From contig NZ_JAVDYG010000001.1 of the NCBI RefSeq assembly GCF_031458325.1, positions 1,984,001 to 2,048,000 on the forward strand: a stretch of DNA of 64,000 bases, in the 5' to 3' direction. Source of the stretch: Nocardioides marmoribigeumensis (lineage in GTDB: Bacteria; Actinomycetota; Actinomycetes; Propionibacteriales; Nocardioidaceae). Below the pieces are notes generated by a model. It was not told the DNA's origin, did not search any database, and worked only from the letters and a program-made list of their open reading frames with translations. Shown here one piece after another: positions 39,032 to 62,860 of this stretch; position 1 is the first letter of the stretch; every line of letters starts with the position of its first letter. Made by a program: the position numbers and the translations under genes.

Positions 39032-39045
39032 GGCTGGGTGGGTGC

Positions 39046-41215: not shown

Positions 41216-41216
41216 G

Positions 41217-41870: not shown

Positions 41871-41877
41871 CCGTGGG

Positions 41878-41908: not shown

Positions 41909-42051
41909 AAACCTCGCGGTGCCAGACGTGTGGGCACATTCGACGGGCGGCGCCGCGGCGTTGGGTGCTGCATCCGCCTCTGGCGGACGACGGGTGCCAG
42001 ATCCAGGTGAACGCCGACGCGGTCACATGGTGAGGCAATAGCCTTCCCCGT

Positions 42052-43164: not shown

Positions 43165-43170
43165 GCCCGC

Positions 43171-47123: not shown

Positions 47124-47165
47124 GACGCTCCCATGCTCTCGTCGTTCGGTGGCTGTCGGTCCTGC

Positions 47166-48638
47166 TCAGACCGGCAGGTGGGTGATCTGGTTGCCCTCCT
47201 CGTCGTGCTCGGTCAGCGGCGGGGCGATCTCCTCCAGGGACTTGCCCTCGGCGTCGACGCCCCACACCGCGGCCGTCAGGGCACCGAGGAGCATGACGGC
47301 CGTCGCCCCGAGGTAGCCCCAGAACATCGGCGTGCGGTCCGTGCCGTCCCCGATGAGTGCGCCGTAGAGGACCGGACCGAGGGCGCCGAAGCACTGCGCG
47401 ATCGCGAAGAAGTAGGAGATCGCCTGACCGCGGACCTCCTGGGGGAAGATCTCCGAGACGGTGAGGTAGCCGGCCGACGCCCCCGCCGAGGCGAAGAAGA
47501 ACGAGACGCACCAGAACGCGGTGTGCGTGTAGGGGTTGAGCGAGTCGGCCATGAAGAAGAACGCCGAGATGCCCAGCACGATGCCGCTGATCGCGTAGCA
47601 GCCGCCGATCATCTTGCGCCGGCCGACGGTGTCGAACAGCGGTCCGAGCAGCAGCGGCCCGAGCAGGTTGCCGACGGCGAAGGGGAAGAAGTAGAGCGCC
47701 GCGGTCGACGAGCTGAGGTCGTAGAAGTTCTTCAGCACCAGTGCGTAGGTGAAGAAGATCGCGTTGTAGAGGAAGCTCTGGGTGATCATCAAGGTGGCAC
47801 CCAGGACGGTCCGGGTCGGGTAGAGCTTGAAGAAGACGTAGACCAGCTGCTTGGGGGTCAGACCCGAACCGGCCTTGATCCACTTGGCGTCCGAGTCGGG
47901 GTGGTCGGGGAGCTTGTTGCCCGAGTCCCGCACCTGCTGCTCGATCCCCTCCACGATCTCCTCGGCCTCGTCGGCGTGGCCGTGGGTGACCATCCAGCGC
48001 GGGCTCTCGGGGATGTGGCGGCGCAGGTAGATGATCCCCAGGCCCAGGATCGGGCCGATGAAGAACGCGATGCGCCAGCCGATGTCCTGGCCGAATCGGT
48101 CGGTGTCCAGGAGGATCGAGCTGGCCACGGCACCGAGGGCGGCACCGGCCCAGTAGGTCCCGTTGATCGCGAGGTCGACGCGTCCTCGGTGCTTGCCCGG
48201 GATCAGCTCGTCGATGGCGGAGTTGACCGCGGAGTACTCACCGCCGATGCCCATGCCGGAGATGAAGCGGAAGAGCAGGAACACCCACATGTTGGGGGCC
48301 AGACCGGCGAGCGCGGCGCCCACGAGGTAGACGACCAGCGTCAGGGTGAACATCTTCTTGCGACCGAGGGTGTCGGTGAGGCGGCCGAACAGCAGTGCTC
48401 CCACGACCTCGCCCGCGAGGTAGACCGTGCCGGCGAGCCCGACGTCGGCCGAGCTCATGTGGAGGGTCTTCTCGAACCCACCCGCGGCGACGATCTGGAT
48501 CTCCAGGCCGTCCAGGATCCACGCGGTCCCGAGCCCGAAGATCACCATCCAGTGGAAACGCGACCACGGCATGTCGTGCATGCGGGCCGGAATCATGCTC
48601 TTGACCGGCTTCTCCTGCACTTCTGCGGAGGCGGACAT
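47166..48638 (-). CDS. MFS metabolite:H+ symporter (sugar-porter-like)
   Basis: This 490-residue transporter has about 12 helices. Signatures: GRLTDTLGRKKMF between helices 2 and 3, RFISGMGIGGEYSAVNS in helix 4, PESPRWM after helix 6, and GRRKM in the second half. This pattern fits the metabolite:H+ symporter branch (dicarboxylate, benzoate, shikimate or sugar type); the substrate is open. The ATG at 48638 (MSASAEVQEK) has GAAGGGG upstream. It is separated by 452 nt from the divergent polysaccharide operon. Confidence 0.85.
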   Translation of the reverse strand: MSASAEVQEKPVKSMIPARMHDMPWSRFHWMVIFGLGTAWILDGLEIQIVAAGGFEKTLHMSSADVGLAGTVYLAGEVVGALLFGRLTDTLGRKKMFTLTLVVYLVGAALAGLAPNMWVFLLFRFISGMGIGGEYSAVNSAIDELIPGKHRGRVDLAINGTYWAGAALGAVASSILLDTDRFGQDIGWRIAFFIGPILGLGIIYLRRHIPESPRWMVTHGHADEAEEIVEGIEQQVRDSGNKLPDHPDSDAKWIKAGSGLTPKQLVYVFFKLYPTRTVLGATLMITQSFLYNAIFFTYALVLKNFYDLSSSTAALYFFPFAVGNLLGPLLLGPLFDTVGRRKMIGGCYAISGIVLGISAFFFMADSLNPYTHTAFWCVSFFFASAGASAGYLTVSEIFPQEVRGQAISYFFAIAQCFGALGPVLYGALIGDGTDRTPMFWGYLGATAVMLLGALTAAVWGVDAEGKSLEEIAPPLTEHDEEGNQITHLPV

Positions 48639-49090
48639 GGAACACCCCTTCTCTCCCTCGACGTATGTGCCCTTTACCCGATGTGTCCTCACTCACACGG
48701 GTCGGCGCGAGCCGTTTCCGCGGCAGGCATGCCTCGACGGCACGTCTGGCGGTGCGCGGCTTCCGTGGCTCGGGCAGGTGTGGTTGCGAGGGGCGCTGGG
48801 TCCGTTCTCGGGCGTGACCCGGCCCGGACGTGGGTCCCTTTGCCTTCGTGCCCAATGGCACTCACGTCGCCCGCCCGACTGACCTACACATGACTCAGCG
48901 CCCAGACCCCGCGCCACTGTCGAAGCAGTTGAGGCAGACGCTCAGCGTCTGCAGACGGGGAGCAAGCCGTGGGCGCACTTCTTCCAAGCACGCAAGGGAT
49001 TCCGAGGCTTCTGCCGCCTGATCCCCGCTGTGCCGCCCCCTCCCCTCACCGCGTCCCCGCCACCCCGGCCCATCCCCTCCGGAGGCTCGC
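48639..49090. promoter_or_regulatory. 452-nt divergent intergenic region before the polysaccharide operon
   Basis: No convincing gene is seen. A perfect 17-bp palindrome CAGACGCTCAGCGTCTG at 48935-48951, about 140 nt before the deacetylase ATG, is a good operator or hairpin candidate. No clear -10/-35 pair stands out. GGAGG at 49080-49084 is the ribosome binding site of the first operon gene. Confidence 0.45.
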
Positions 49091-51328
49091 ATGAGCAGCT
49101 TCGCCCTGCCCCTACGTCACGGTCGGCGGACCGCCGCCGTCCTCGGTGCGGCGGCCCTCGTCGCGGCCACGCTCGGCTCCGGTGCGTCGGCCGAGACCGC
49201 GGTCGCGCCCGCGGGTCCGGCCCCCGGCTATCCCGCACCGGTGTCGCCGGACGTCGCGCCGGCAGGACCCCTGCCGGTGCGGGGCGGAAGCGTCCCGGTG
49301 ACCAGCGGGCTCACCGTCGTCGGCGGCACGGCGAAGGCGTCGACGACCACGAGGACCGCCACCAAGGCCCCGTCCACCACGTCCACCACCTCCACCACGT
49401 CCACCACTGCGTCGACGACGAGCACGGCAGGCACCACGAACACCGTGGCGACCTCGACCAGGAAGGTCGCGCTGAGGGCGCTCGTGCTCGCGCAGTCCGA
49501 CGACGACCTCGAGCTGCCGGCCTGGACCTCCACGCTGGACCGCCTCGGGGCGTCGTACGACGTCGTCCACACCCGGTCGCAGGACCTCACCGCCTCCTCC
49601 CTGGTGCGTCCCGACGGGACGGGCCGCTACAACGCCGTGCTGCTGACCGACGCCATGCAGGCCTACGTCGACGACTCGGGGGCGTTCGTGAGCGCGCTGT
49701 CCGCCGACGAGTGGAACCTCCTGTGGGCCTACGAGCGGGACTTCGGGGTGCGGCAGGCGACGCTCTACGCCAGCTACGGCTCGTGGCCGGAGGACTACTG
49801 CCTGACGCCGGTGTCGGAGGGCGGGACCGGCAGCTCGACGATCACCGCGGGGCTCACCGGTGCCGGCGCGCCGCTGATGAGCTTCCTCAAGCCGACCGCC
49901 CAGGTCCCGATCACCGAGTCCTACGTCTACCGCGACGCGATCGCCGACGGGTGCGACGCCCAGCCGGTCCTGACGGCCGACAACGGTGACGTGCTGGGGG
50001 TCAGGTCGGTCTCGACGGACGGCCGCGACCGGATGGCGCTGACCTTCACCTCCAACCAGTACCTGCTCCAGGCCAGGCTGCTCGCCTTCGGCCTGTTCCG
50101 CTGGGCCAGCCGGGGGATGTACTTCGGCGAGCAGCGGCACTACCTCGAGGTGGACGTCGACGACTGGTTCAACTCCACGGACGAGCGCTACCCCGACGCG
50201 ACGATCAATTCCGACCCCGGGTTCAGCATGTCCGGGCACGACGCCTACAACGCGAGCCAGCAGCAGAAGGCACTGATCGCGTCGTTCCCGCAGCTGAGCG
50301 GCTTCCAGCTCAACCTCGCCTACAACGCCGGCGACGCCGACACCTCGGCCGGGAAGACCTGCTGGCCCAACGGAGGGATCAACCGGCTCACCGCGACCTC
50401 TCGGTGCCTCAAGGGCGAGTTCCAGTGGCTCAACCACACCTTCACGCACCCGAAGATGAACTTCACCGACTACGCCACGAGCTACTCCGAGATCACCCAG
50501 AACCTCACCGTCGGCAAGGACCTCGGCCTCAACGCGCCCAAGGCGGTGCTCAAGACGGGTGAGTACTCCGGGCTCGGCGTCTACAACCCGGACCCGGACA
50601 ACGACATCGACCCGCCGATCGACCACGGGCTGATGGCGTCCAACCCCGACCTCCTGGCCGCGGCCAAGGCCGCCGGTGTCAAGTACGTGCACGGCAACAT
50701 GTCGTTCGCGTCCCACCGGCCGGCGTGCTTCAACTGCGGCGTGGTGCACCCGATGGAGCCGTCGATCATGGTCGTGCCCGACTGGCCGACGAACATCGCC
50801 TACTTCGCCACCACGCCCGACGAGGAGACCTCGTTCTACAACTGGTTCTACGGACCTGGCGGGAAGTTCCCGTTCTTCCCGGCCGACCAGACCTACCAGC
50901 AGGCGATCGACCACGAGTCCGACCAGGCGCTGCTGCAGCTGACCGAGGGGTCGATCTACACGCACACGATGCACATCGGCAACCTGCGGGACTACGGCTC
51001 GGGCAGCACCCTGGCCTTCGACTGGATCAGGGCCGTCGCCGCGAAGTACACCGCGCTGTACTCCGTGCCGCTGCTGAACCCCACGTGGCCCGAGCTCGCG
51101 TCCTACGTCGCGGACCGCAACAAGCACTTCGACGAGCTGCAGCAGGGCGTCGGCGCGGTCTACGACCCGGTCAACAACAACATCACCGTGCTCACCCCCA
51201 AGGCCGGCAAGGCGACCGTCAGTGGTGCCAGGGCAGGTGGCGCCACCACGTACGGCAGCGACGTCTCGTCGGCGCTCACCCTCAAGCGCAACACCGCCCT
51301 CGTCGTCCCCGCGAGCCCGCTGCCGTGA
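49091..51328 (+). CDS. secreted Agd3-like (CE18) polysaccharide deacetylase
   Basis: This 745-residue exported protein has a signal peptide (cleavage likely after ASA, residue 34), then a Ser/Thr-rich stalk (STTSTTSTTSTTAS). The rest resembles Agd3, the fungal galactosaminogalactan N-deacetylase. NodB-type metal and catalytic motifs are visible: HYLEVDVDDWF (Asp-Asp), NHTFTHPKMN (HxxxH metal pair), LKTGEYSGLG, and THTMHIGN for the final His. Such enzymes remove acetyl groups from GalNAc, giving a cationic adhesive polymer. GGAGG precedes the ATG by 6 nt. It is the first of eight overlap-coupled genes. Family assignment is from motifs and context. Confidence 0.78.
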   Translation: MSSFALPLRHGRRTAAVLGAAALVAATLGSGASAETAVAPAGPAPGYPAPVSPDVAPAGPLPVRGGSVPVTSGLTVVGGTAKASTTTRTATKAPSTTSTTSTTSTTASTTSTAGTTNTVATSTRKVALRALVLAQSDDDLELPAWTSTLDRLGASYDVVHTRSQDLTASSLVRPDGTGRYNAVLLTDAMQAYVDDSGAFVSALSADEWNLLWAYERDFGVRQATLYASYGSWPEDYCLTPVSEGGTGSSTITAGLTGAGAPLMSFLKPTAQVPITESYVYRDAIADGCDAQPVLTADNGDVLGVRSVSTDGRDRMALTFTSNQYLLQARLLAFGLFRWASRGMYFGEQRHYLEVDVDDWFNSTDERYPDATINSDPGFSMSGHDAYNASQQQKALIASFPQLSGFQLNLAYNAGDADTSAGKTCWPNGGINRLTATSRCLKGEFQWLNHTFTHPKMNFTDYATSYSEITQNLTVGKDLGLNAPKAVLKTGEYSGLGVYNPDPDNDIDPPIDHGLMASNPDLLAAAKAAGVKYVHGNMSFASHRPACFNCGVVHPMEPSIMVVPDWPTNIAYFATTPDEETSFYNWFYGPGGKFPFFPADQTYQQAIDHESDQALLQLTEGSIYTHTMHIGNLRDYGSGSTLAFDWIRAVAAKYTALYSVPLLNPTWPELASYVADRNKHFDELQQGVGAVYDPVNNNITVLTPKAGKATVSGARAGGATTYGSDVSSALTLKRNTALVVPASPLP

Positions 51329-52833
51329 GGATCGCCCTCGTCTCGGAAGGCACCTACCCCTTCGCCATGGGCGGTGTCAGCGTCTGGTTCGACCAGCTGA
51401 TCCGCGGGATGCCCCAGCACTCCTGGGGAGTCGTCGCGCTCACGGTCGACGGCACCGAGGAGCCGATGTGGGAGGCCCCGCCCAACCTGGTCGGGGTGCG
51501 CACCATCCCGCTGTGGGGCCCCCACCGGTTCCGGCCCGGCGCGGAGGTGGGCGAGGAGTTCGTCTTCCCGTTCTCGGTGCTGGTGGCCTCGATGATGGCC
51601 CCGGTCGCGACGCGGTCCGAGCAGGCGTCGAAGGACCGCACGGCGTTCCTCGTCGCCCTGGAGGCGCTGCACGACCTGGCGCAACGCCAGGACGTCGCCG
51701 ACGCCCTGACCTCGCCCGCCGCGCTGACCGTGCTGATGGACGAGTGGAACAGCCTGTACGGCGACGGGCTGAGCCTCGGCGACGCGCTGCAGGTGGCGCT
51801 GCTGCTGGAGCACATGCTGCGCCCCCTCTTCGCGGACGCGGTCCACGCCGACCTCGTGCACTGCTCGATGAACGGCCTGTCGATGTTGGTCGCCATGGCG
51901 GCCAAGTGGACCTACGGGACGCCGGTGCTGATGTCCGAGCACGGCATCTACCTTCGGGAGCGCTACCTGTCCTACGTCGAGGAGGACGCACCCCACGCGG
52001 TGAAGGTGCTGGTCCTCAGCTTCTTCCGCCTGCTGGCCGGGGCCGGCTACCTCGTCGCCGACGCACTCGCGCCGCACTCGAGCTACAACCGCCGCTGGCA
52101 GCTGGAGAACGGCGCGCGCCCCGAGCGCATGTGGACGATGTACAACGGTGTGTCCCCCGCGCACTTCCCCGAGGCCGTGGGTGAGCCGCACGTCCCGACC
52201 GTCGTCTTCATGGGGCGCATCGACCCGCTGAAGGACCTGCACACGCTGGTCCGCGCCTTCGAGATCGTGCACGCCGAGATGCCCGAGGCAGTGCTGCGCA
52301 TCTACGGCGGCACCGCGGCGGAGAGCCGGGACTACCGCGACAGCTGCGTGAAGCTGGTCCACACGCTCGGGCTGGAGGACTGCGTCGTGTTCGAGGGCCG
52401 GGTCGACTCACCGGTCGAGGCCTACCACGCCGGGAGCGTCGTCGCCCTGAGCAGCATCTCGGAGGGCTTCCCCTACACGGTGGTCGAGGCGATGGCCTGC
52501 GCGCGCACCGTCGTCTGCACCGACGTCGGTGGCGTCAAGGAGGCGGTGGGCGCCTGCGGCCTCGTCGTGCCGCCGCGCGACAGCGCCGCCTTCGCCGCCG
52601 CCTGCCTGCGGCTGCTCCGCGACCACGAGCTGCGGCGGTCGCTCGCCGCGGGCGCACGGGCACGCATCCTCGAGCACTTCACGCTGGACCACTCCCTCGC
52701 CGCCTACTCGCGCCTCTACGACCACCTGACCGGGGTGGCCCCCCAGGAGGGTCCGCCTCCCGGGGCCGACGGCCTCGAGTGGACCGCGCTCGACGCCAGC
52801 CTCGTCGCCGGACCGGGGGTGGGTGAGCGATGA
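51325..52833 (+). CDS. pelF: PelF-type GT4 glycosyltransferase
   Basis: This 502-residue cytosolic glycosyltransferase has the N-terminal DUF3492 region (RIALVSEGTYPFAMGGVSVWFDQLI, LMDEWNSLYG, LVHCSMNGLSMLVAMAAKW, SEHGIYLRERYL) and a GT4 C-terminal domain (VVFMGRIDPLKDLHTLVRAF, RIYGG, SSISEGFPYTVVEAMAC, GGVKEAVG). That architecture is diagnostic of PelF, the Pel polymerase that uses UDP-GalNAc/GlcNAc. The GTG overlaps the deacetylase stop as GTGA. The linked PelA-type hydrolase supports the pel call. Sugar specificity is inferred. Confidence 0.85.
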   Translation: MRIALVSEGTYPFAMGGVSVWFDQLIRGMPQHSWGVVALTVDGTEEPMWEAPPNLVGVRTIPLWGPHRFRPGAEVGEEFVFPFSVLVASMMAPVATRSEQASKDRTAFLVALEALHDLAQRQDVADALTSPAALTVLMDEWNSLYGDGLSLGDALQVALLLEHMLRPLFADAVHADLVHCSMNGLSMLVAMAAKWTYGTPVLMSEHGIYLRERYLSYVEEDAPHAVKVLVLSFFRLLAGAGYLVADALAPHSSYNRRWQLENGARPERMWTMYNGVSPAHFPEAVGEPHVPTVVFMGRIDPLKDLHTLVRAFEIVHAEMPEAVLRIYGGTAAESRDYRDSCVKLVHTLGLEDCVVFEGRVDSPVEAYHAGSVVALSSISEGFPYTVVEAMACARTVVCTDVGGVKEAVGACGLVVPPRDSAAFAAACLRLLRDHELRRSLAAGARARILEHFTLDHSLAAYSRLYDHLTGVAPQEGPPPGADGLEWTALDASLVAGPGVGER

Positions 52834-54284
52834 GCCGTCTCGACACGCCCTCGGCCGGCGTGGTCGCCGCGATGCAGTCCCTCGAGGAGCGGGTCGGTCC
52901 CGTCATCGCGCAGACCGTGGACGCGCTCCAGGTCGCCGCGCTCCTCGAAGCCGACGGCATCACCGACGAGGTCGCCCGCGACGTCTACGGCTGCAGCGAC
53001 GTCTTCCGGCTGGCCGTCAAGGTGCGCCGACGCTGCCTGCCCGGCGCGGAGACGAGCCGGAGGGCACCGACCGTCCAGGCCTTCGGAGACCTGCGGGGCG
53101 TCGACCGGCACGGTCCGCGGCTCCTCGCCCACGGTCCGCTCTACCTCCTCCCGGCGACGCTCTTCCCGCCGGTGCTCGCGCTGCTGGGCTCGCACCGACT
53201 GGTCACCGGCCTCGTCGTGGGAGCCGGGCTCGCGTGGGTCTGGGCAGGGGTCTCGACGTGGCTGGCCTACCGGCTGCTCGGCCTGCACCGCGACACCGAC
53301 GCGGCACGCCTGCTGCAGCTGTCCGCCCTCACCGGGCTCCCGCTCGCGGCCGGCGGCGCGGTGGTCGTGACGCTGACCAGTGGTGGGGGACCTGGGCTCG
53401 TCGCCGTGGCCTGCGGGCAGATGGCCTACCAGATGGGCGCCACGCTCCTGATGTTCCACCACCGCGAGCGACACCTGCTCCTCGCGATGCTCCCGGCCGT
53501 GCTCGCCGGCCTCACCTACCTCGCGCTGCCGCGGGCCGACGCGTCGGCCGTCCTGGCGGTCGCCGTCGGGACCGTGTCCGTCGTCGCGGTGCTCGTCCTC
53601 TCGCTGGACGACCTGCACGGGATCGCCCCACGCACGAGCCTCGCGGGGATGCTCCGGGCAGCGGCCGAGGCCCGGGACTCGGTCCGCACGGCGCCCGGTC
53701 AGGTCGGCCTCGTCGCGCTCCACACCGCGCTCTCGGCCGCCTACCTGCTCCACGCGCAGTCCCGCTACCTCGGGGGGTCGCTCCAGGTCTCGGCCGGCCT
53801 GCTGCCGCTCATCGTCGGGATGGGTCTCGTGGAGCTCCTCGCGCACCGCTTCCGTGCCCGGGCGCACGCGCTCCTCGGCGTGGTGAGCTATCCGTCCGAG
53901 CTCGCCGGACGGGTGCTCCGGCTCGTGATCGGCGACGTCGTGGCGTGCGTGGTCGGCGTGCTGGTGCTCGGCTCCGTCCTCCTCGTCGCCCTGGACTCCC
54001 AGGGTCTGCTGACCCCCGCGGGCGTCGCGATGACGGTGGCCGGTGCCTTCCTCGCCGCCGCCTACTACGTGAGCTTCCTGCTGATCGGGATGGGCATGCT
54101 CGGGCCCCTCATCGCGTCGGTCGGCCTCGCCCTGGCGGTGCACGTCCTCGTCGCCGCTCTCGTGCCGGCGGCCCGTCACGGGCTCGCCGACACCTCCGCC
54201 TTCGCCGGGACCGCCCTGCTGCTGCTGGTGGTCTCGCTGTCCCGACTCGTGCCGGCCGTGACCGACCCGAGGGCCCACGCATGA
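52830..54284 (+). CDS. ~12-TM membrane protein, candidate polysaccharide translocase
   Basis: This 484-residue protein has a ~90-residue cytoplasmic N-terminus (VDALQVAALLEADGITDEVA, CSDVFRLAVKVRRR) followed by about 12 hydrophobic helices, the size and topology of a Wzx/MATE-like flippase. It sits directly after pelF, where Pel clusters place the 12-TM transporter PelG. The N-terminal sequence does not look like PelG, so I call it a functional analogue candidate only. Its ATG overlaps the pelF stop (ATGA). Partner interaction with PelF is inference. Confidence 0.65.
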   Translation: MSRLDTPSAGVVAAMQSLEERVGPVIAQTVDALQVAALLEADGITDEVARDVYGCSDVFRLAVKVRRRCLPGAETSRRAPTVQAFGDLRGVDRHGPRLLAHGPLYLLPATLFPPVLALLGSHRLVTGLVVGAGLAWVWAGVSTWLAYRLLGLHRDTDAARLLQLSALTGLPLAAGGAVVVTLTSGGGPGLVAVACGQMAYQMGATLLMFHHRERHLLLAMLPAVLAGLTYLALPRADASAVLAVAVGTVSVVAVLVLSLDDLHGIAPRTSLAGMLRAAAEARDSVRTAPGQVGLVALHTALSAAYLLHAQSRYLGGSLQVSAGLLPLIVGMGLVELLAHRFRARAHALLGVVSYPSELAGRVLRLVIGDVVACVVGVLVLGSVLLVALDSQGLLTPAGVAMTVAGAFLAAAYYVSFLLIGMGMLGPLIASVGLALAVHVLVAALVPAARHGLADTSAFAGTALLLLVVSLSRLVPAVTDPRAHA

Positions 54285-55117
54285 CCACCACGTCAGAGAG
54301 GGAGAACCCGATGCACGCCGTCGTCCTCGCTGGGGGCAAAGGTGTCCGCCTGCGTCCCTACACCACCTCGTTGCCCAAGCCGCTGGTCCCGATCGGGGAC
54401 CACCACGTGATCCTCGACATCATCCTCGAGCAGCTGGCGCAGCACGGGTTCCGCTCGGCCACGCTGGCGATCAACCACCTGGGCCGGCTCATCCGGGCCT
54501 ACGTCGGCGACGGGTCGTCCTGGGGACTGGAGATCGACTACGTCGAGGAGACGCACCCGCTGTCGACGTGCGGCCCGCTGTTCGGCATCCCGGACCTGCC
54601 CGAGCACTTCTTGGTGATGAACGGCGACCTGCTCACCGACCTGGACTTCGGCGACCTGATGCGACGCCACGTCGCGTCGGGTGCGCCGCTCACGGTCGCC
54701 ACGGTGCCGACCACGGCCAGGATCGACTTCGGCGTCCTGGACGTGCAGGAGCAGCAGATCCGCGGCTTCGCGGAGAAGCCGTCGATGGTCTACTCGGTCA
54801 GCACCGGGATCTACGGGATGTCCCGTTCCACGATCGAGCCCTACCCGGCCGGCCTCGCCTACGGCTTCGACCAGCTCATCCTCGACCTCATCGCCGAGGG
54901 CCGTTACCCGGCCAACTACCGGCTGGACGGCTACTGGTCCGACATCGGCCGACCGGAGGACTACGACGAGGCCAACCGCACCTGCGACGGGCTGCTCGAG
55001 AGGCTGCTCCCGGCCCGACGGGCAGCGGCGCAGGAGGTCCCGGCCCAGGTCGCGGCGGAGGTGCCGCGCCAGGTCCGCCGCGAGGTCCCGGACCCCGTCG
55101 AGCAGGCGACGGCATGA
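54281..55117 (+). CDS. sugar-phosphate nucleotidyltransferase
   Basis: This 278-residue enzyme has the nucleotidyltransferase signature VVLAGGKGVRLRPYTTSLPKPLVPIG, the Mg-binding VMNGDLLTDLDF and EKPSMVYSVSTGIYGM. It activates a sugar 1-phosphate to an NDP-sugar. RmlA/ManC-like enzymes are similar, so the base and sugar are open. The ATG 54281 overlaps the upstream stop; an internal ATG at 54311 (MHAVVLAGG) has a better GAGAGGGAG ribosome site and could be the true start. The last 40 residues are a charged tail with an EVPxQV repeat, unusual for this family. Confidence 0.85.
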   Translation: MTTTSERENPMHAVVLAGGKGVRLRPYTTSLPKPLVPIGDHHVILDIILEQLAQHGFRSATLAINHLGRLIRAYVGDGSSWGLEIDYVEETHPLSTCGPLFGIPDLPEHFLVMNGDLLTDLDFGDLMRRHVASGAPLTVATVPTTARIDFGVLDVQEQQIRGFAEKPSMVYSVSTGIYGMSRSTIEPYPAGLAYGFDQLILDLIAEGRYPANYRLDGYWSDIGRPEDYDEANRTCDGLLERLLPARRAAAQEVPAQVAAEVPRQVRREVPDPVEQATA

Positions 55118-56082
55118 CGACCGCACTCGTGCTCGGGGGGTCGGGCTTCCTCGGGCGGCACGTGGTCGCGGCGCTCGCAGCAGACCCCCGGATCACCCGG
55201 GTGCTGAGCCCCCCGCGGAACAGCTGCGACGTGATGACCGCCGCGCCGGGCAAGCTCCAGGAGGTGCTGGCGGGGTTCGACCCGGACGTGGTCGTCAACT
55301 GCACGGGCCGCCTCGACGGCAGCGCGGAGCACCTCGCCGAGGCCAACACCGCGGTCACCGCCAAGCTGCTCGCGGTGATGGAGCGGAGCCGTGCGCGCCT
55401 GGTGCGGATCGGCTCGGCCGGGGAGTACGGCGTGGTGCCGGTCGGGGTCCCGGTCGCCGAGGACGCCCCGGCCGCGCCGGTCGGGCCCTACGGTGCCTCC
55501 CACCTCGAGGCGACCCGCCTGGTGGAGCAGGCGCACCGCACCGGCCGGGTCGACGCCCTCACCCTGCGGGTGTTCAACCCCATCGGGACCGGCCTGAACG
55601 GCAGCACCGTCCTGGGCAGCGCGGCCACGCAGATGCGGGAGGTCCTGCGCGGAGCGCGGCACCACGTCCGCCTCGGCCCGCTCGGTGCCTTCCGTGACTT
55701 CGTCGACGCCCGCGACGTCGCCTCGGCCGTCGTCGCGGCGACGTTCGCGCCCTCGACCCGGCCGACGTACAACGTCGCCGGCGGGCGTGCCACGAGCGTG
55801 CGCGACGCGGTGAGCCTGCTGGCCCAGGTGGCCGGCTACACCGGGGAGGTCCGGGAGGCACCCTCGCTGCCCGGCCGCTCGGCCGGCGTGGACTGGATCC
55901 AGGCCGACATCGGTCGCGCCCGGGAGGACCTCGGCTGGCAGCCGCAGCACGCGCTGCGGGACTCGCTGACCTGCATCTGGCGCGACGTCGCGCCCGTCGA
56001 CCGGCGTCCTGGGATGGACGCACCCACCGTGCCCCGCCGACCGGCGGCGGCCACCTCGATCCCACTTGGGGGAAGATCCTGA
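55114..56082 (+). CDS. NAD-dependent sugar epimerase/dehydratase-like protein, atypical active site
   Basis: This 322-residue extended SDR begins ALVLGGSGFLGRHVVAAL (GxxGxxG). The serine is in RIGSAGEYG, and the usual YxxxK appears as YGASH: the catalytic lysine is replaced by histidine. Other blocks fit the epimerase family (LRVFNPIGTGL, FRDFVDARDVASAV, YNVAGG, DIGRAREDLGWQP). It may be a reductase, a weak epimerase or a binding protein. Its ATG overlaps the upstream stop (ATGA). The ~30-residue C-terminal extension is Pro/Ala/Arg-rich. Confidence 0.75.
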   Translation: MTTALVLGGSGFLGRHVVAALAADPRITRVLSPPRNSCDVMTAAPGKLQEVLAGFDPDVVVNCTGRLDGSAEHLAEANTAVTAKLLAVMERSRARLVRIGSAGEYGVVPVGVPVAEDAPAAPVGPYGASHLEATRLVEQAHRTGRVDALTLRVFNPIGTGLNGSTVLGSAATQMREVLRGARHHVRLGPLGAFRDFVDARDVASAVVAATFAPSTRPTYNVAGGRATSVRDAVSLLAQVAGYTGEVREAPSLPGRSAGVDWIQADIGRAREDLGWQPQHALRDSLTCIWRDVAPVDRRPGMDAPTVPRRPAAATSIPLGGRS

Positions 56083-57401
56083 TGAGCAAGAACATCGGCA
56101 TCGTCGGCATGGGCTACGTCGGCCTGACCCTGACCGCCGCCCTGGCCGAGGCCGGCCACACCGTCCACGGCGTCGACGTGCAGCAGTCCGTCGTGGACGC
56201 GCTGTCGCAGGGGCGGCCGCACATCTTCGAGCCCGGCCTGGAGGAGGTGTTCCGGGAGCTGGTCGGGTCGCGGATCCTGATCAGCACCCAGCTGCCCCGC
56301 ACCGGCCTGGACGCGGTCATCATCTCGGTGTCCACACCGGTGGACGAGGCGACCCAGGAGCCCAACCTGGCCAACCTCGCCGCCGCAGCGCGCGACATCG
56401 CCCGCTGGTGCGACCCGGACACGCTGGTGGTCGTCCGGAGCACCGTGCCCATCGGCGCGTCGCGCTCCGTGGTGCTCCCGGCGCTGCTCGAGGCCTGGCC
56501 CACCGCCCGCCTCGCGATGGCGCCGGAGCGCACGATCCAGGGTCAGGCCCTGCGCGAGCTGGTGGAGCTGCCGCAGGTGGTCGGTGGGCTGGACGAGCGC
56601 AGCCTCCAGGCCTGCATCGAGGTGTTCAGCGAGCTCTCGCGGGAGATCGTGCCGGTCTCGAGCCTCGAGGCGGCCGAGATGGTGAAGCTGTCGAACAACT
56701 GCCACACGGACCTGATCTACGCCTTCGGCAACGAGCTGGCGCTCATCGCGGGCGCCCACGGCCTCGACCCGCTGGAGGTCATCCGGGCCACGAACCTGCA
56801 CTACCCGCGACCGGACCTGGCCAAGCCGGGCTACGTCGGCGGGGGCTGCCTGACCAAGGACCCCTATATCATGATCGACAGCTCCCGGGACCACGAGCCG
56901 TTCCTGGTGCGGCGGGCCCGTGAGCTCAACGAGCACATGCCGCGACACGTCGCCCAGACCGTGGTCGACATGCTGGTCGAGCGCCGCGGGACGGCGGCGG
57001 GCGCGTGCCTGGCGGTCCTGGGCTGGGCCTACAAGGGGGTGCCGGCGACCGACGACATGCGCGGGACCCCGATCGCGGCGATGATGCCGGTGTTCGCCGA
57101 GGCGGGCGTCACGGTCCTGGGGCACGACCCGGTCGTGACCGACGAGGTGATCCACGCCTACGGCGGGGAGCCGGTGAGCCTGGACAAGGCGCTCGGCGAG
57201 GCCGACGCCGTGCTGGTGATCAACGACCACCCCGACTACCGAGCCATCCAGGTCGACACGGTGTGGAGCGAGCGGCACCCCCTGTTCGTCTTCGACTCGT
57301 GGCGGGTGCTGGACGAGCGGGCCGTCACCGGGGCGGGCGCCCACTACGCGAGCCTGGGGTACGCCGGTCGGGGAGCCGAGCCGCAGGCGGTGCCGGCATG
57401 A
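56082..57401 (+). CDS. UDP-sugar 6-dehydrogenase (UDP-HexNAc dehydrogenase type)
   Basis: This 439-residue enzyme has the NAD-binding GIVGMGYVGLTLTAALAEAGH, the STVPIGAS motif, the lysine/asparagine block EMVKLSNNCHTDLIYAFGNELA, and the catalytic cysteine in GGGCLTKDP. It resembles the UDP-N-acetylhexosamine dehydrogenases (WecC/TviB/WbpA group) rather than UDP-glucose dehydrogenase, suggesting it makes a HexNAc uronic acid. If so, the polymer may contain an acidic residue in addition to hexosamine. The ATG overlaps the preceding TGA by one base. The last 20 residues are a flexible tail. Confidence 0.85.
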   Translation: MSKNIGIVGMGYVGLTLTAALAEAGHTVHGVDVQQSVVDALSQGRPHIFEPGLEEVFRELVGSRILISTQLPRTGLDAVIISVSTPVDEATQEPNLANLAAAARDIARWCDPDTLVVVRSTVPIGASRSVVLPALLEAWPTARLAMAPERTIQGQALRELVELPQVVGGLDERSLQACIEVFSELSREIVPVSSLEAAEMVKLSNNCHTDLIYAFGNELALIAGAHGLDPLEVIRATNLHYPRPDLAKPGYVGGGCLTKDPYIMIDSSRDHEPFLVRRARELNEHMPRHVAQTVVDMLVERRGTAAGACLAVLGWAYKGVPATDDMRGTPIAAMMPVFAEAGVTVLGHDPVVTDEVIHAYGGEPVSLDKALGEADAVLVINDHPDYRAIQVDTVWSERHPLFVFDSWRVLDERAVTGAGAHYASLGYAGRGAEPQAVPA

Positions 57402-58366
57402 GGGTCCTGGTGCTCGGCGGCGCGGGCTTCATCGGTGTCCACCTCTCCCGCCGCCTGCTCGCCGAGGGGGCGGACCTGACCATCGTCGACGACTTCTCCC
57501 GCGGGCAGGACGACCCGGAGCTCGCCGCCATCCGCGACCACCCGGCCGTCACCGTCGTCTCGGCGGACCTGACCTCGCCCGCGACGTGGGCTGCGCTGCC
57601 GCACGGCTGGGACCAGGCCTACCTCCTGGCGGCGATCGTCGGGGTGCGCAACGTCGAGCGCGACCCCGCCCGCGTGCTGCGGGTCAACACGCTGAGCGTC
57701 CTGCACCTCCTGGACTGGGTGCGGGGTGAACCGCGGGTGTTCTTCTCCTCGACCAGCGAGGTCTACGCCGGCGGGGTGGACGCCGGGATCGTGCCCGTGC
57801 CGACCGGCGAGGACGTGCCGGTGATGATCGAGGACGTCCGGTCCCCCCGGTTCGCCTATGCGATCAGCAAGCTCCTGGGCGAGGCGGCCTTCCTGCACGC
57901 GGCCACTCCGACCGGTGTGCGGGCCGTGGTGGGCCGGTTCCACAACGTCTACGGACCCCGCATGGGGTGCGACCACGTCGTCCCGGAGATGGCGCTGCGG
58001 GCGATGGGCGGGGAGGACCCGTTCCTCGTGCCCGGGGCCGACCAGTACCGCTCCTTCTGCTTCGTCGACGACGCCGTGGACGCGGTCGTCCGGCTCATGG
58101 CCGACGACCGGGCGGTGGGGCAGGTCGTGCACATCGGCGACGACACCGAGGAGACCAACATCGGGGACCTGGCCAAGCTGGTGTGCCGGGTCGCGGACGT
58201 CAGCCCGCGGATCCTTCCGCGTCCGGCGCCACCGGGCTCGGTCCACCGCAGACGCCCCGACCTGTCGAGGCTGCGGTCCCTGACCGGCTACGAGCCGGCC
58301 ACCTCCCTCGAGGAGGGCGTGGAGCGCACGGTCGCGTGGTACCGCACGAGGTACGCACCCACATGA
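57398..58366 (+). CDS. NAD-dependent nucleotide-sugar epimerase
   Basis: This 322-residue extended SDR has VLVLGGAGFIGVHLSRRLL, the VVDDFSRG-type NAD loop (IVDDFSRGQ), the serine block FSSTSEVYAGG and an intact YxxxK (YAISK). FHNVYGPRMG and DQYRSFCFVDDAVDAV are typical of UDP-glucose/GalNAc 4-epimerases and uronate epimerases. With the dehydrogenase upstream, it may convert UDP-GlcNAc to UDP-GalNAc or epimerise the uronic acid. The ATG overlaps the upstream stop (ATGA) and its own stop overlaps the hydrolase ATG. Confidence 0.85.
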   Translation: MRVLVLGGAGFIGVHLSRRLLAEGADLTIVDDFSRGQDDPELAAIRDHPAVTVVSADLTSPATWAALPHGWDQAYLLAAIVGVRNVERDPARVLRVNTLSVLHLLDWVRGEPRVFFSSTSEVYAGGVDAGIVPVPTGEDVPVMIEDVRSPRFAYAISKLLGEAAFLHAATPTGVRAVVGRFHNVYGPRMGCDHVVPEMALRAMGGEDPFLVPGADQYRSFCFVDDAVDAVVRLMADDRAVGQVVHIGDDTEETNIGDLAKLVCRVADVSPRILPRPAPPGSVHRRRPDLSRLRSLTGYEPATSLEEGVERTVAWYRTRYAPT

Positions 58367-59079
58367 CCCGGCGACCGCTGGCGTTCTACTACGGGACCGG
58401 TGCGGTGCCCGAGCTGACCGCCTACCAGCGGGTCGTGCTGCAGCGCGGCTCCTACTCACCGCTGCAGCTCGCTTCTCTGACAGGGGCACGCACGCACCCA
58501 CTGGCGTACGTGTCCCTGTCGGAGGACGAGGGACCGCCGGCGCCCTGGCAGCGCCGGGACCGGGACCCGGACTGGGGCGGGGTGCGCGTGCACCTGGACG
58601 ACCCCCGGTGGACCCGGCACGTGACCCAGCAGGCTGCCGAGGCCCTGGAGGCGGGCTTCGCGGGCCTCTTCCTGGACACGCTCAACGTGGAGTGGACCCA
58701 TCCCGAGGACATCCCCCACCTGCTGGCCCTGGTGGCCACGCTCCGGGAGGTGGTCGGGACGGCCTACCTCCTCGCCAACCGCGGCTTCGCGCTCCTGCCG
58801 ATGCTGGCCGAGCTGGTCGACGGGGTGGTCTTCGAGTCGTTCTCGGTGCGCTGGCTGGCCGGTGACGGCTATGCGCCCTGGCCGCCGGACGTGCTCGAGG
58901 GCCATGCTCGCGTCGCCGAGCGGCTGCTGGGCTTCGACCTGGACCTCTTCGCGCTCGACTACGCCGACGACGAGGCGCTGGCCGCCTTCGCCGAGCGCAG
59001 GGCCCGCCAGTTCGGGATGAGCTGCTTCGTCTCGGACCGGTTGCTCTCGCGCCTCCCCCAGCGAGCACCGGTCGGCTGA
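58363..59079 (+). CDS. PelA-type hydrolase domain protein (GH166/GH114-like), stand-alone
   Basis: This 238-residue protein matches the hydrolase domain of PelA. The start is PLAFYYGTGAVPELTAYQRVVL. Later blocks are PLAYVSLSEDEG, GFAGLFLDTLNVEW (acidic catalytic region), YLLANRGFALLPML and GVVFESFSVRW. PelA's domain cleaves alpha-1,4-linked GalNAc. Here it is a separate gene with no signal peptide, so it is either cytosolic or uses another export route. It ends the operon, with the stop inside the terminator hairpin. Identification is strong for the fold and moderate for substrate. Confidence 0.78.
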   Translation: MTRRPLAFYYGTGAVPELTAYQRVVLQRGSYSPLQLASLTGARTHPLAYVSLSEDEGPPAPWQRRDRDPDWGGVRVHLDDPRWTRHVTQQAAEALEAGFAGLFLDTLNVEWTHPEDIPHLLALVATLREVVGTAYLLANRGFALLPMLAELVDGVVFESFSVRWLAGDGYAPWPPDVLEGHARVAERLLGFDLDLFALDYADDEALAAFAERRARQFGMSCFVSDRLLSRLPQRAPVG

Positions 59080-59115: not shown

Positions 59116-60093
59116 TCACCAGACGGTGGGCGAGGTGGTCGCGCACGGGACGCGCCCACCGTTGTTGGGCAGGCCCAGCTGGAACCTCGCGGTGTTGAAG
59201 TGCCGGTTCCTGGAGTCGCTGCAGATCGTGCTCCACCGCTTGAGCATCGGCTTGTACTCCGCGACCCAGACCGCCTTGTTGAGCTTGGTGAAGCTCTGGA
59301 GGCCGGGATAGGTCTTGCCGTCGGCGGGGTTGTAGACGCTCGTGCACTCGCGGTACTGGTAGCACTCCTCGGTGAGGTTCCAGTCGAAGTACGGCGCGAG
59401 GTCGTGGGCCTGCTCCAGGTCGCCCTTCATGCCGACGCTCAGCCCGAGCTCGTGGGCCCAGGACGCGACGGCGATGTTGTAGCGGATCTGGTCGGCGTAG
59501 GTGAGCGGGAACCCGGACCGGTTGCTCCACCCGGTCATCTCGTCGGGCTCCACGGCGTCGAAGCCCTTGTCCTTGCAGCGCTGCATGCGTGCCTTCATGA
59601 TCGGCGCCAGCTCGTCGACGCGACGGATGTCGAGCCAGTAGGAGTCGTTCCAGCCCGAGTCGGCGTTGCCCCAGATGCGGGGGGTGATGGCCTGGAACTT
59701 CGCGGCGTCGTCGCGGTAGGTCTCGTAGACGCCGACGTCGATGTAGCAGATCACCTTCTTGCCCATCGCGTGCAGGGCGCTGACCGTCGCCGCGGAGTTG
59801 TACTCCAGGTCGATGTCGTAGACGTCGGGTGCCGGCAGCGGCTTGCCGGTGGGGTCCTGCAACCCCATCTGCACGGGGTCGTCGAGGTCGAGCGTGTCCT
59901 CCAGGACCCACTGGAAGGCCAGGGGCCTGTCGGCGGTCGGTGACCAGACTCCGGTGGCGGCGCCGGCCGGGCTGGAGAGGCCGACGGCCGTGAGGCCGGC
60001 GGCGCTGGTGAGCGCGAGAGCGGCGAGCGCTCCCGAGCGGAGTCGGCGCACCAGCCGTGGGGCGTGGCGGTGCAGGTGGTGGGTGAACGACAT
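59116..60093 (-). CDS. secreted GH114 endo-alpha-1,4-galactosaminidase-like protein (copy 1)
   Basis: This 325-residue protein has a long signal peptide (cleavage near AGA, residue ~46) and a GH114 TIM-barrel domain: VYDIDLEYN, VICYIDVGVYETYR, SGWNDSYWLDIRRV, KGFDAVEPDEMTGW (catalytic acidic cluster) and YFDWNLTEECYQY. GH114 enzymes such as fungal Ega3 cleave alpha-1,4-galactosaminoglycans, a close match to the adjacent polymer locus. GGGAGGG precedes the ATG by 7 nt. The core is almost identical in DNA to copy 2. Roles could be release, remodelling or biofilm dispersal. Confidence 0.85.
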   Translation of the reverse strand: MSFTHHLHRHAPRLVRRLRSGALAALALTSAAGLTAVGLSSPAGAATGVWSPTADRPLAFQWVLEDTLDLDDPVQMGLQDPTGKPLPAPDVYDIDLEYNSAATVSALHAMGKKVICYIDVGVYETYRDDAAKFQAITPRIWGNADSGWNDSYWLDIRRVDELAPIMKARMQRCKDKGFDAVEPDEMTGWSNRSGFPLTYADQIRYNIAVASWAHELGLSVGMKGDLEQAHDLAPYFDWNLTEECYQYRECTSVYNPADGKTYPGLQSFTKLNKAVWVAEYKPMLKRWSTICSDSRNRHFNTARFQLGLPNNGGRVPCATTSPTVW

Positions 60094-60184
60094 GGAGTCC
60101 CTCCCAGGCTCTGTCGTGTGCGGGTCCCCCGAACACGGGAACACTAGGGAGGAAACGGATGAAGAAGAGTAAAACGGGACAAAT

Positions 60185-60240
60185 GGGTGCAGCACCCAAG
60201 CATCTGTCTAGAGGACTAGTCCGCGCGCCGGGAGCGCGCG
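60185..60240. promoter_or_regulatory. intergenic hairpins between the two GH114 genes
   Basis: GGGTGCAGCACCC (60185-60197) is a perfect 13-bp palindrome about 90 nt before the copy-1 ATG and could be an operator. A CGCGCGC/GCGCGCG stem at 60222-60240, next to the copy-2 stop, is a likely terminator for copy 2. Confidence 0.4.
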
Positions 60241-60243
60241 CCC

Positions 60244-61191
60244 TCACCACCGGCGCGGCGAGGTGGTCCGGCACGGCAGCCGGCCACCGCCGGTGGGCAG
60301 GCCGAGGCGGTAGCGCGCGGTGTTGACGTGGTGGGTCCGGGAGTCCGCGCAGATGCTGCGCCAGCGACTGCTGGAGAAGCGGTGGTACTCCGCGACCCAC
60401 ACCGCCTTGTGCAGCCTGGTGAAGCTCTGCAGCCCGGCGTGCACCCGACCGTCGGCCCCCGGCCCCTCGTTCCACACCCGCGTGCACTCGCGGTACTGGT
60501 AGCACTCCTCGGTGAGGTTCCAGTCGAAGTACGGCGCGAGGTCGTGGGCCTGCTCCAGGTCGCCCTTCATGCCGACGCTCAGCCCGAGCTCGTGGGCCCA
60601 GCGCGCGACCGCCTTGTTGTAGCGGATCTGGTCGGCGTAGGTGAGCGGGAACCCGGACCGGTTGCTCCACCCGGTCATCTCGTCGGGCTCGACGGCGTCG
60701 AAACCCTTGTCCTTGCAGCGCTGCATGCGTGCCTTCATGATCGGCGCCAGCGCGCGGACCCGTCGGATGTCGAGCCAGTAGGAGTCGTTCCAGCCCGAGT
60801 CGGCCCTGCCCCAGATGCGGGGCTTGATCGCCCGGAACTTCGCGGCGTCCTGGCGGTAGGTCTCGTAGACGCCGACGTCGATGTAGCAGATCACCTTCTT
60901 GCCGCGGGCGTGCAGCGCCCTCACCGTCGCCGCGGAGTTGTACTCCAGGTCGATGTCGTAGACGTCGGGTGCGGGCAGGCGCGCCCCGCCGAAGGTCCGC
61001 AGCCCCATCTGGACCGGGTCGTGCAGGTCGAGCCGGTCGGCCAGGACCCAGTGCAGCCTGGAGGGGTGCGCGGACGTCGGCCTCCACCACCCGGTCGCGG
61101 CGGCGCTCGTGGGGGCGGCGCGGACCAGGGTCGCGGCGCAGAGGAGGGCGAGCGCGACCAGGAGCAGACCGCGAGGGCGGGAGGTGGCCAT
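60244..61191 (-). CDS. secreted GH114 endo-alpha-1,4-galactosaminidase-like protein (copy 2)
   Basis: This 315-residue paralogue has a shorter signal peptide (LLLVALALLCAATLVRAAP, cleavage near residue 26-31) and the same GH114 blocks (VICYIDVGVYETYR, KGFDAVEPDEMTGW, EECYQYRECTRV). The segment 60481-60601 is identical in DNA to 59341-59461 over 121 bp, with constant offset 1140 across about 460 bp. The N- and C-terminal parts have diverged more, with a basic, Arg-rich composition. This points to tandem duplication with later gene conversion. It is divergent from the histidine kinase. Confidence 0.85.
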   Translation of the reverse strand: MATSRPRGLLLVALALLCAATLVRAAPTSAAATGWWRPTSAHPSRLHWVLADRLDLHDPVQMGLRTFGGARLPAPDVYDIDLEYNSAATVRALHARGKKVICYIDVGVYETYRQDAAKFRAIKPRIWGRADSGWNDSYWLDIRRVRALAPIMKARMQRCKDKGFDAVEPDEMTGWSNRSGFPLTYADQIRYNKAVARWAHELGLSVGMKGDLEQAHDLAPYFDWNLTEECYQYRECTRVWNEGPGADGRVHAGLQSFTRLHKAVWVAEYHRFSSSRWRSICADSRTHHVNTARYRLGLPTGGGRLPCRTTSPRRW

Positions 61192-61294
61192 GACCCAGCG
61201 TAGGTCGGTCGGACGGGCACCGTCAGGTCGGACGAAGGGTCCTCTTTCGGGGGTTCCGGTTGCCGGGCCCCCCGGGCTGGGGCAGAGTCACCCC

Positions 61295-62860
61295 GTGCCG
61301 TCCGAGTCCTCCGGCGACCCCTCGACCGGGGCGAGGAGGTTCACCTCCGTCCGGGAGTCCTGGGCCGAGTTCTGGGCCAGCCCGGTGCGCATGCGCGTCT
61401 ACTACTCCCTGGTCATCGTCTCCGCGCTCGTCCTGCCCTGGGCGGTCCCGCTCGGCCTGGAGGTCACCGCCCCGGAGTGGGCGACCGTCCTCACGCTCGT
61501 CGCGATCTCCGTGCTCAACGTCGAGATCAGCCGGCACCTCTCGGGCGGGATCGCGACCACGCACCAGCCCCACAAGGCGCTGTCGGCCTGGGCGTTCGCC
61601 AGCGGGCTCCTCCTCGCCACCCCGTGGCTGCTGGTCGTCGTGCCGCTCTCCTACGCCCACGCCCGGTGGCGGGGCATCCGGGTGCCGCTGTGGAAGTGGA
61701 TCGGCTCGGCGGCGTACCTCGTGCTGTGCGGCTACGCCGTCGCCTGGGTGCGTCACCTGCTGCTCGGCGACCGGGTCAACTGGATGGACGGCCAGGGCGG
61801 TCGAGGCCTCGCCGTCATGCTCCTGGCCGGGGTGGTGTTCCTGGCCCTGGAGGGGTCGCTGTTCTGGGGCAGCGCGCTCTTCAACCACCGCGAGGACGAG
61901 GTGTGGCTGCGCGCCACCCTGCTCAGCCCGAGCTTCTACCTCGCCGAGGGCGGCGTCCTGCTCGTCGGCGGCCTGCTCAGCGCGGTCTGGACGGGTGGGT
62001 CGTGGTTCAGCCTCTTCTTCGTCCCGATCTACGTGATGATCCAGCACGCCGTCCTGCTCGTGCCCCTGCGCGAGCGCGCCGCCGCCGCCGAGATGCTGGC
62101 GGCGAAGAACCGCGCGCTCGGCGAGCTCAACGAGGACCTCGAGGAGGCCAACCAGTTCAAGGTCGACCTGCTCGGCATGCTCGGACACGAGCTGGGCAAC
62201 CCGCTCACCTCCATCGTCGGCTTCGCGGAGTTCGGTGCCCTCTCGGCCGCGCGACGCCGCGAGACCGAGTCGCAGCGTTCCTTCGACGTGATCGGGCGCA
62301 ACGCCGAGCAGATGCGGACCGTCCTCGCCGACATCCTCAGCCTGGTCACCAGCGAGCGCGGCGCCCTGACCGCCGTGCCCGAGCCGTGCGTGCTGTCGCT
62401 GCGGCTGACCCACGTGCTCGCGGGCCTGCGCCGCGCCGACCTGCCGGCCGTCGACTGCCCACCGGACCTGACGGCCATGGTCCAGCCGTCACACCTGGAC
62501 CAGATCGTCGGCAACCTGCTCAGCAACGCCGAGAAGTACGGCGGCGGGGTCGTCGCCGTGCGGGCCTCGACCGTCGAGGACGGCTGGGTGGAGGTGGCCG
62601 TCGTGGACCACGGGTCGGGGGTGCCCGAGGAGTTCCGTCAGCACCTGTTCAACCGCTACACCCGGGACACCGCCACCGCCGAGCAGGTGATCGGCACCGG
62701 TCTCGGGCTCTTCATCAGCCGCGAGCTCGCGCACGCCAACGGTGGGGAGCTGCTCCACCGGGAGGCCGAGCCGCAGGGGTCGGAGTTCGTGCTCCGGCTG
62801 CCCGGGACCCGACCGGGTCCTAGGGCAGTGGGCGTCCCATCGGTCGCGCCCGCGCGCTGA
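61295..62860 (+). CDS. membrane sensor histidine kinase
   Basis: This 521-residue kinase has an N-terminal membrane domain (about eight helices, residues ~30-270) with no recognised extracellular sensor, a short coiled coil, and a HisKA/HATPase core. The H-box is LLGMLGHELGNPLTSIVGF, the N-box is IVGNLLSNAEKYG, G1 is DHGSGVP and G2 is GTGLGLFISRELAHANGG. No response regulator is adjacent; the orphan LuxR protein is 46 kb away. The GTG start has CAGAGT 6 nt upstream, perhaps leaderless. It might sense the envelope or polymer state, but that is speculation. Confidence 0.87.
   Translation: MPSESSGDPSTGARRFTSVRESWAEFWASPVRMRVYYSLVIVSALVLPWAVPLGLEVTAPEWATVLTLVAISVLNVEISRHLSGGIATTHQPHKALSAWAFASGLLLATPWLLVVVPLSYAHARWRGIRVPLWKWIGSAAYLVLCGYAVAWVRHLLLGDRVNWMDGQGGRGLAVMLLAGVVFLALEGSLFWGSALFNHREDEVWLRATLLSPSFYLAEGGVLLVGGLLSAVWTGGSWFSLFFVPIYVMIQHAVLLVPLRERAAAAEMLAAKNRALGELNEDLEEANQFKVDLLGMLGHELGNPLTSIVGFAEFGALSAARRRETESQRSFDVIGRNAEQMRTVLADILSLVTSERGALTAVPEPCVLSLRLTHVLAGLRRADLPAVDCPPDLTAMVQPSHLDQIVGNLLSNAEKYGGGVVAVRASTVEDGWVEVAVVDHGSGVPEEFRQHLFNRYTRDTATAEQVIGTGLGLFISRELAHANGGELLHREAEPQGSEFVLRLPGTRPGPRAVGVPSVAPAR

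Follow-up and report, generated by a model that had tools for sequence, protein, structure and literature searches.

In Nocardioides marmoribigeumensis we describe an operon of eight genes that likely encodes a synthase-type exopolysaccharide system, a bacterial relative of the galactosaminogalactan and Pel pathways in which a membrane protein of an unnamed family, C, takes the place of the exporter PelG. The operon lies in a 64,000-nucleotide stretch of the forward strand (assembly GCF_031458325.1, contig NZ_JAVDYG010000001.1, positions 1,984,001-2,048,000), hereafter the window, and all coordinates given below for this genome are window positions. By direct reading, eight open frames, A to H, occupy 49091-59079, all on the + strand, with a third-codon-position GC content of 92-97% in each. 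Neighbouring frames overlap by 4 bases (A/B, as GTGA, and likewise B/C, C/D, D/E, F/G and G/H) or by 1 base (E/F). This bears out an earlier note on this DNA, which had described eight same-strand genes joined by ATGA, GTGA or one-base overlaps, except that the overlap of C and D is doubtful. Among 24 relatives, whose start codons were picked by a simple rule, 21 have a D that begins 20-37 bases past the end of C; D of the window therefore probably starts with the ATG at 54311 and not with the C-overlapping ATG at 54281. The extent given in the note holds for the eight genes and missed two convergent genes for GH114 hydrolases directly downstream (59116-61191, - strand).

The first gene, A (49091-51328, +), encodes a predicted secreted protein of 745 residues, composed of the CBM87 and CE18 modules of the fungal de-N-acetylase Agd3. 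Both Pfam models for the Agd3 CBM87 and CE domains matched above their cut-offs of 27.6 bits (PF25116, 44.9 bits; PF25115, 30.0 bits), in agreement with the previous assignment of A to the fungal Agd3 (CE18) type, and Agd3 itself was the sole match in the PDB at E<=0.01 (6nwz, profile E 6e-28). Residues D377, D378, H510, H514 and H668 of Agd3 (CM1, CM2, CM4) correspond to D357, D358, H449, H453 and H628 of A. These are invariant across 11 aligned rows and represent five of the six key Agd3 residues. The N-terminus of A is hydrophobic; here and below, signal peptides were judged by a crude hydropathy scan alone, which is noisy for start codons. The substrate of Agd3 is alpha-1,4-linked N-acetylgalactosamine (GalNAc) oligomers (PMC7229062). 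The second gene, B (51325-52833, +, start codon GTG), encodes a GT4 glycosyltransferase of 502 residues. Its proposed membership of the PelF family was confirmed by the NCBIfam PelF model NF038011 (168 bits, cut-off 100) and by PF11997 (156 bits). PelF uses UDP-GalNAc (PMC12345266).

A search with B returned 25 loci, two of which (L044 and L045) were partial (29% and 38%) and were dropped. Judged by record title, the remaining 23 close relatives are mostly Micromonosporaceae; two are Kibdelosporangium and one carries the name Rhodococcus. Mapping of the gene set across relatives, which the earlier note had proposed, located all of A to H by tblastn in 21 of these 23 loci; in the remaining two, L032 and L035, the contig stops after E. 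The recurrence in 21 of 23 loci indicates that the eight-gene set is more than a chance association. The layout varies: in three Kibdelosporangium-type loci (L039, L042 and L043) two Agd3 genes stand in tandem and the opposite strand encodes F-G-H, and at L033 and L040 one gene was matched as two pieces. Of 26 close loci examined (L021-L043, L046, L047 and L057), 16 have a GH114 gene within or beside the gap between E and F. Around N. marmoribigeumensis the system is patchy. In the family, 2 of 341 genomes had a PelF match (L177 being the second PelF), and in the genus none of the 4 other genomes listed did. With A as query, 7 of 293 genomes of the order matched, its own included, and the Pfam Agd3_CE model matched 7 of 396 genomes, 6 of them above the cut-off, in a search where the window A match itself reached only E 4e-4. 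As a separate observation, the PelF of L043, titled Rhodococcus rhodnii, pairs closely with the Kibdelosporangium aridum PelF in the tree described below (end branches 0.0035 and 0.021), possibly reflecting a mislabelled strain.

The third gene, C (52830-54284, +), encodes a multispanning membrane protein of 484 residues with no match in Pfam, NCBIfam or the PDB, the last searched up to E 10. It had been described as a protein of about 12 transmembrane segments; that it is multispanning stands, and the number is only approximate, because a crude hydropathy count gives 9 hydrophobic segments in the window protein and 6-11 in 24 relatives. A conserved N-terminal part precedes the first of these segments. 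Of 246 genomes of the class, 26 gave a match to C and 26 to PelF, with 25 common to both. Except for the weakest (E 7e-4), the 40 C matches all lay downstream of a PelF match, on its strand and at most 3.5 kb away. C adjoins 42 of 44 PelF match segments; one of the remaining two lies where its contig ends, and beside the other a wider model matches C. The neighbourhoods examined for C cover 34 of the 40 places; the other six are in G339, G791, G275, G902, G319 and G153, with a single place in each of the last four. C belongs to an as yet unnamed family whose members accompany this PelF branch. In a PelF tree of 59 rows, obtained from 61 candidates after a length and stop filter removed L068 and L166, PelG-linked and C-linked rows were separated with a support of 100/100, subject to long-branch and composition warnings. 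One PelF, at L058, sits on the C-linked side, and neither C nor PelG was found at that locus. Near and distant sets of C matched each other at 99.8% in a profile comparison for which distant members were cut at approximate starts; the wider C model included the L054 row in a wrong frame. Weak links to the window C family were recorded for L068 (68%), L050 (30%) and L052 (12%).

We regard it as evenly balanced whether C is a PelG (MOP-type) exporter altered almost beyond recognition, with an N-terminal part added, in which case the system would be a far branch of Pel equipped with an Agd3-type deacetylase. C and PelG hold the same slot after PelF. PelG scored above its cut-off in 3 of 296 genomes of the phylum, with weaker matches in 3 more, and two of the three above-cut-off genomes have the order PelF-PelG-Agd3, so that PelG there occupies the slot held elsewhere by C. 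At L054, the protein in the C slot (2061-3653, - strand of that locus), which adjoins PelF and Agd3, matched the C profile at 96.4% over 90 N-terminal columns. Its membrane part matched the PelG profile at 19.3% (E 0.0012, score 34.6 over 196 columns), above seven unrelated membrane proteins (<=21.3) and 30 shuffles of L054 itself (<=18.1), and the PelG-like stretch aligns opposite a conserved stretch of C. Because L054 matches both families weakly, a remote relation of C to PelG is possible, in which L054 could form the bridge from one exporter family to the other. On the other hand, this bridge consists of one protein, and direct hhalign comparisons with PelG gave a probability of 0.20% when ten PelG sequences were set against the C family, of 0.05% with window C by itself and of 0.06-1.21% with wider sets; even with L054 included among the C sequences, the value rose only to 1.21%. 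The separation of PelG-linked from C-linked rows in the PelF tree, with the long-branch warnings given above, also argues against descent from PelG, as does the PelG profile PF16933, which had no match in the whole genome, its positive control matching in Thermotoga. The earlier statement that the membrane protein does not resemble PelG is therefore correct for the window protein and is qualified by the weak PelG match of its distant relative L054. Two genomes of a single distant genus in the phylum (L055, 6829-8202; L056, 6955-8328) encode PelF, an authentic PelG and a deacetylase of the Agd3 type consecutively, forming a Pel/Agd3 hybrid.

The last gene, H (58363-59079, +), encodes a TIM barrel of 238 residues that was rightly described as a PelA-type hydrolase. 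PelA is the nearest solved structure to the H profile (E 2.5e-22, against 4e-4 for the next family), and the match of H to PelA structure 5tcb (E 2e-14) starts at H residue 6. D105 and E158 of H are kept in 22 of 23 rows, that is, in all rows that cover them, and E158 aligns with a position occupied by Ala in PelA structure 5tsy. The numbering of PelA Glu223 in PMC12054363 disagrees with the count from the 5tsy alignment (218), and the alignment was used. Against the Pfam GH114 model, H scored 18.1 bits, under the cut-off of 27, and one relative scored 33.1 bits. No N-terminal hydrophobic segment was detected in H or its aligned relatives, and in 17 of 22 relatives the start chosen for H falls within G, with an overlap of 1 or 4 bases. 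Because it has no signal peptide, H is probably intracellular, and H and the deacetylase A would probably act on opposite sides of the membrane. The two downstream genes, copy 1 (59116-60195, -) and copy 2 (60244-61191, -), encode enzymes of the endo-alpha-1,4-galactosaminidase family GH114 (PF03537, cut-off 27; 206.7 and 204.9 bits) that are 78% identical over 287 residues (BLAST) and constitute the only GH114 matches of the 4.44 Mb genome at E<=0.001. Both are probably secreted, with an N-terminal hydropathy of 1.86 for copy 1 and 3.06 for copy 2 on a crude scale.

The operon had been presented as one with a split PelA. Hydrolase and deacetylase are indeed encoded by separate genes, but the term is misleading because the deacetylase is of the CE18 and not the PelA type and H has no signal peptide; moreover, a hydrolase gene apart from the deacetylase is already known in Bacillus (PMC7112168). 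A divided PelA outside the cell would require that H be secreted without a classical signal. Its closeness to the PelA hydrolase domain and the periplasmic location of PelA in Pseudomonas (PMC12345266) are consistent with such an arrangement, which we nevertheless consider quite improbable, given the lack of an N-terminal hydrophobic segment in H and its relatives, the overlap of its start with G, and the presence of GH114 enzymes with hydrophobic N-termini that can serve the outside role.

More distant loci retain the core of the system in other combinations. On annotated plasmids, the order is A-pelF-C-Sph4-GH114 in Kocuria rosea, A-pelF-C-LegB-D-E-Sph4-GH114 in Streptomyces californicus, pelF-C-LegB-D-E-A-A-GH-GH in Deinococcus aquaticus, and A-pelF-(C slot)-H with a convergent GH114 gene in Thermus brockianus, where the C-slot protein matched C only weakly, at 68% over 61 columns, in one comparison and showed no match in another. 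A further 33 loci of the class were read with purpose-built profiles. Within the stretches fetched, 17 of them (L139-L154 and L167) contained A in 16, a Spherulin-4-type gene in 16 and GH114 in 9. The other 16 (L155-L166 and L168-L171; probably Streptomyces) contained PelF and E, with Spherulin-4 in 14 of 16, and neither Agd3 nor GH114 was found in the stretches fetched; C was recognized in 13 of 16 by the wider model and in 16 of 16 in the genome search, via its N-terminal part. These sixteen Agd3-less loci perhaps make a fully acetylated polymer. Most Spherulin-4 proteins encoded beside C start at or near the domain start, and most GH114 proteins have a hydrophobic N-terminus; the exceptions, Spherulin-4 proteins that look secreted, are those of L055 and L056 and the second copy in L140. 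This pattern suggests that the slot of an intracellular hydrolase is filled by different families in different lineages.

The four genes D to G encode the sugar-nucleotide enzymes already recognized in the note, and all were placed by Pfam, NCBIfam and PDB searches. D (54281-55117, +) is a sugar-1-phosphate nucleotidyltransferase (PF00483, 113 bits) whose PDB neighbours are UTP-glucose-1-phosphate and mannose-1-phosphate nucleotidyltransferases. E (55114-56082, +) is a nucleotide-sugar enzyme of the short-chain dehydrogenase/reductase (SDR) type, with a match to PF01370 and nearest to a GDP-6-deoxy-mannose reductase (PDB 6x3b, 85 bits). F (56082-57401, +) is a nucleotide-sugar 6-dehydrogenase (TIGR03026, 304 bits, cut-off 189.8; PDB 4r16, 190 bits, and CalS8, 172 bits) with a Cys256 present in 23 of 23 rows. 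It probably acts on an N-acetylhexosamine (HexNAc): models for UDP-N-acetylmannosamine (UDP-ManNAc) dehydrogenase (222 and 207 bits) outrank those for UDP-glucose (171 and 141 bits), all of them below their own cut-offs. G (57398-58366, +) is an SDR of the UDP-glucuronate decarboxylase/dehydratase type (PDB 8vr2, 116 bits; UXS 4lk3, 114 bits), in which S118-T-S-E121, Y154 and K158 are invariant in 23 rows. In the window E, YxxxH replaces the YxxxK motif, so that the catalytic lysine is lost. The histidine occurs in 22 of 25 rows of window-type E, the other three (L039, L042 and L043) having lysine; YxxxK is found in nine of the ten LegB loci whose E was read, the E of Deinococcus not fitting the pattern, and YxxxQ in 15 of the 16 Agd3-less loci. 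In the window clade F and G accompany D and E, and in other lineages a LegB-type dehydratase does so. Because both the E motif and the partner genes differ by lineage, different nucleotide sugars are suggested for each.

Several observations weigh against the proposed GalNAc-type polymer or the role given to C. First, the operon genes, from whose families the polymer is inferred, include no clear UDP-N-acetylglucosamine/UDP-GalNAc 4-epimerase, and the 6-dehydrogenase F would be superfluous for a pure GalNAc polymer. Second, the CM3 arginine of Agd3 (R613) is required for activity and is retained in most, though not all, bacterial Agd3 homologues (PMC7229062); in the 11 aligned rows there is no invariant Arg between H453 and H628 of A, and the stretch of A around CM3 fails to align with 6nwz. 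Third, 21 of the 40 C matches cover the N-terminal stretch only, ending by model position 175, with a frame that continues through 4-8 hydrophobic segments in the 16 loci checked. Finally, absences of C are not firm, because at most 6 candidates per genome were scored.

A different glycan, such as a polymer containing HexNAc-uronic acid or pentosamine on which A and H act in place of a plain GalNAc polymer, would account for F and G, which are nearest to UDP-HexNAc 6-dehydrogenases and to decarboxylases/dehydratases, respectively, and are kept in all 21 intact named loci. A UDP-HexNAc dehydrogenase and a decarboxylase together provide a route to pentosamines. We hold this explanation to be somewhat unlikely, because the PelF, CE18, PelA hydrolase and GH114 (Ega3) enzymes that have been tested act on GalNAc or galactosamine polymers (PMC7229062, PMC12054363, PMC12345266) and because the operon encodes a single glycosyltransferase. 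The first argument is qualified by another fungal GH114 enzyme, which is reported to have shown no activity on Pel.

In the favored reading, a bacterial galactosaminogalactan/Pel-like system, the enzymes D to G would provide the nucleotide sugar or sugars, and the PelF-type B would polymerize them in the cytoplasm into an alpha-1,4 GalNAc-type chain. C may then move the chain across the membrane, replacing PelG, and the secreted A would strip N-acetyl groups to yield a cationic, adherent polymer resembling the sticky polysaccharides of bacterial and fungal biofilms. Outside the cell both GH114 enzymes may cut or remodel the deacetylated polymer, and H probably trims or clears chains inside. 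We tentatively consider, as an unlikely extension, that C represents a second export family of an origin separate from PelG that serves one PelF branch, its conserved N-terminal part docking the synthase; that a signal-less hydrolase, of the PelA or Spherulin-4 type depending on the lineage, acts inside on the growing chain; and that the window clade makes a mixed polymer with an oxidized or pentose-type amino sugar derived from F and G.

The operon is flanked upstream by a gene for a sugar-type major facilitator superfamily transporter (47166-48692, -) and downstream by a histidine kinase gene (61109-62860, +). A candidate ninth gene upstream (47133-48893, +) was rejected, since the opposite strand of this region encodes the transporter. 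Further upstream, positions 37876-45893 contain a tRNA-Leu gene followed by genes for an Mrr-type nuclease, a phage-type integrase and two DNA methylases, and look like an integrated island. The idea that the operon is part of this island was unsupported, no second copy of the tRNA end being present within the window.

The composition of the cluster is not new in kind, contrary to the claim that no such cluster had been described. Bamford 2020 (PMC7229062) reports bacterial agd3 operons, Actinobacteria included, that combine a glycosyltransferase with a multispanning membrane protein and GH114, in some cases also with Spherulin-4, and places agd3 in or near such operons in 30 of 35 bacterial species. 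The present locus shares with them the CE18 deacetylase, the cytoplasmic glycosyltransferase, the multispanning membrane protein and GH114: A, B and C are adjacent, and the GH114 genes (59116-61191) lie beside the operon. In its text on bacterial operons, that report does not call the glycosyltransferase PelF, gives the membrane protein no family name, and is silent on F, on G and on any intracellular hydrolase (PMC7229062). The C family as a regular partner of PelF and a hydrolase without a signal peptide in such an operon are features that we did not find in the accessible text of published accounts, and our literature search found no title that deals with the C family or with PelF clusters from Actinoplanes, Micromonospora, Streptomyces or Deinococcus. 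This PelF branch passes the NCBI PelF model or the DUF3492 profile and yet nearly always adjoins C in the 246 class genomes, so that searches for Pel operons anchored on PelG, such as that of PMC7112168, would miss it. Be it an exporter of its own kind or a remote PelG, C would offer a second case in which to study the transfer of a chain from a GT4 enzyme to a membrane channel.

Compared with known systems, the locus probably works like the Pel and galactosaminogalactan systems and is not a Pel operon by membership, because PelG was sought and not found. It shares PelF and the PelA-type hydrolase with Pseudomonas pelABCDEFG and differs from it in having no fused PelA, no PelG by profile and a deacetylase of another family (PMC12345266). 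None of the eight genes was assigned to PelB, PelC or PelD; the PelD profile PF16963 had no match in the genome, and its control also matched nowhere. With Bacillus cereus pelDEADAFG it has in common PelF, separate deacetylase and hydrolase genes and a three-domain extracellular deacetylase, and it differs in having no PelG by profile, no gene among the eight that was assigned to PelD and a CE18 rather than a CE26 deacetylase (PMC7112168, PMC13254593), the PelA-type deacetylase being CE21 in Pseudomonas and CE26 in Bacillus (PMC13254593). Like the fungal galactosaminogalactan cluster (uge3, sph3, gtb3, ega3, agd3), it combines Agd3, GH114 (Ega3 in fungi) and a further glycoside hydrolase beside one synthase (PMC7229062, PMC4817252). 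Fungal Gtb3 is one predicted membrane glycosyltransferase, whereas here two genes, B and C, are found in its stead, and the further hydrolase is of the Sph3 type in the fungal cluster and of the PelA type in the window lineage (PMC7229062, PMC4817252). Such loci represent likely bacterial counterparts of the fungal galactosaminogalactan pathway in culturable organisms.

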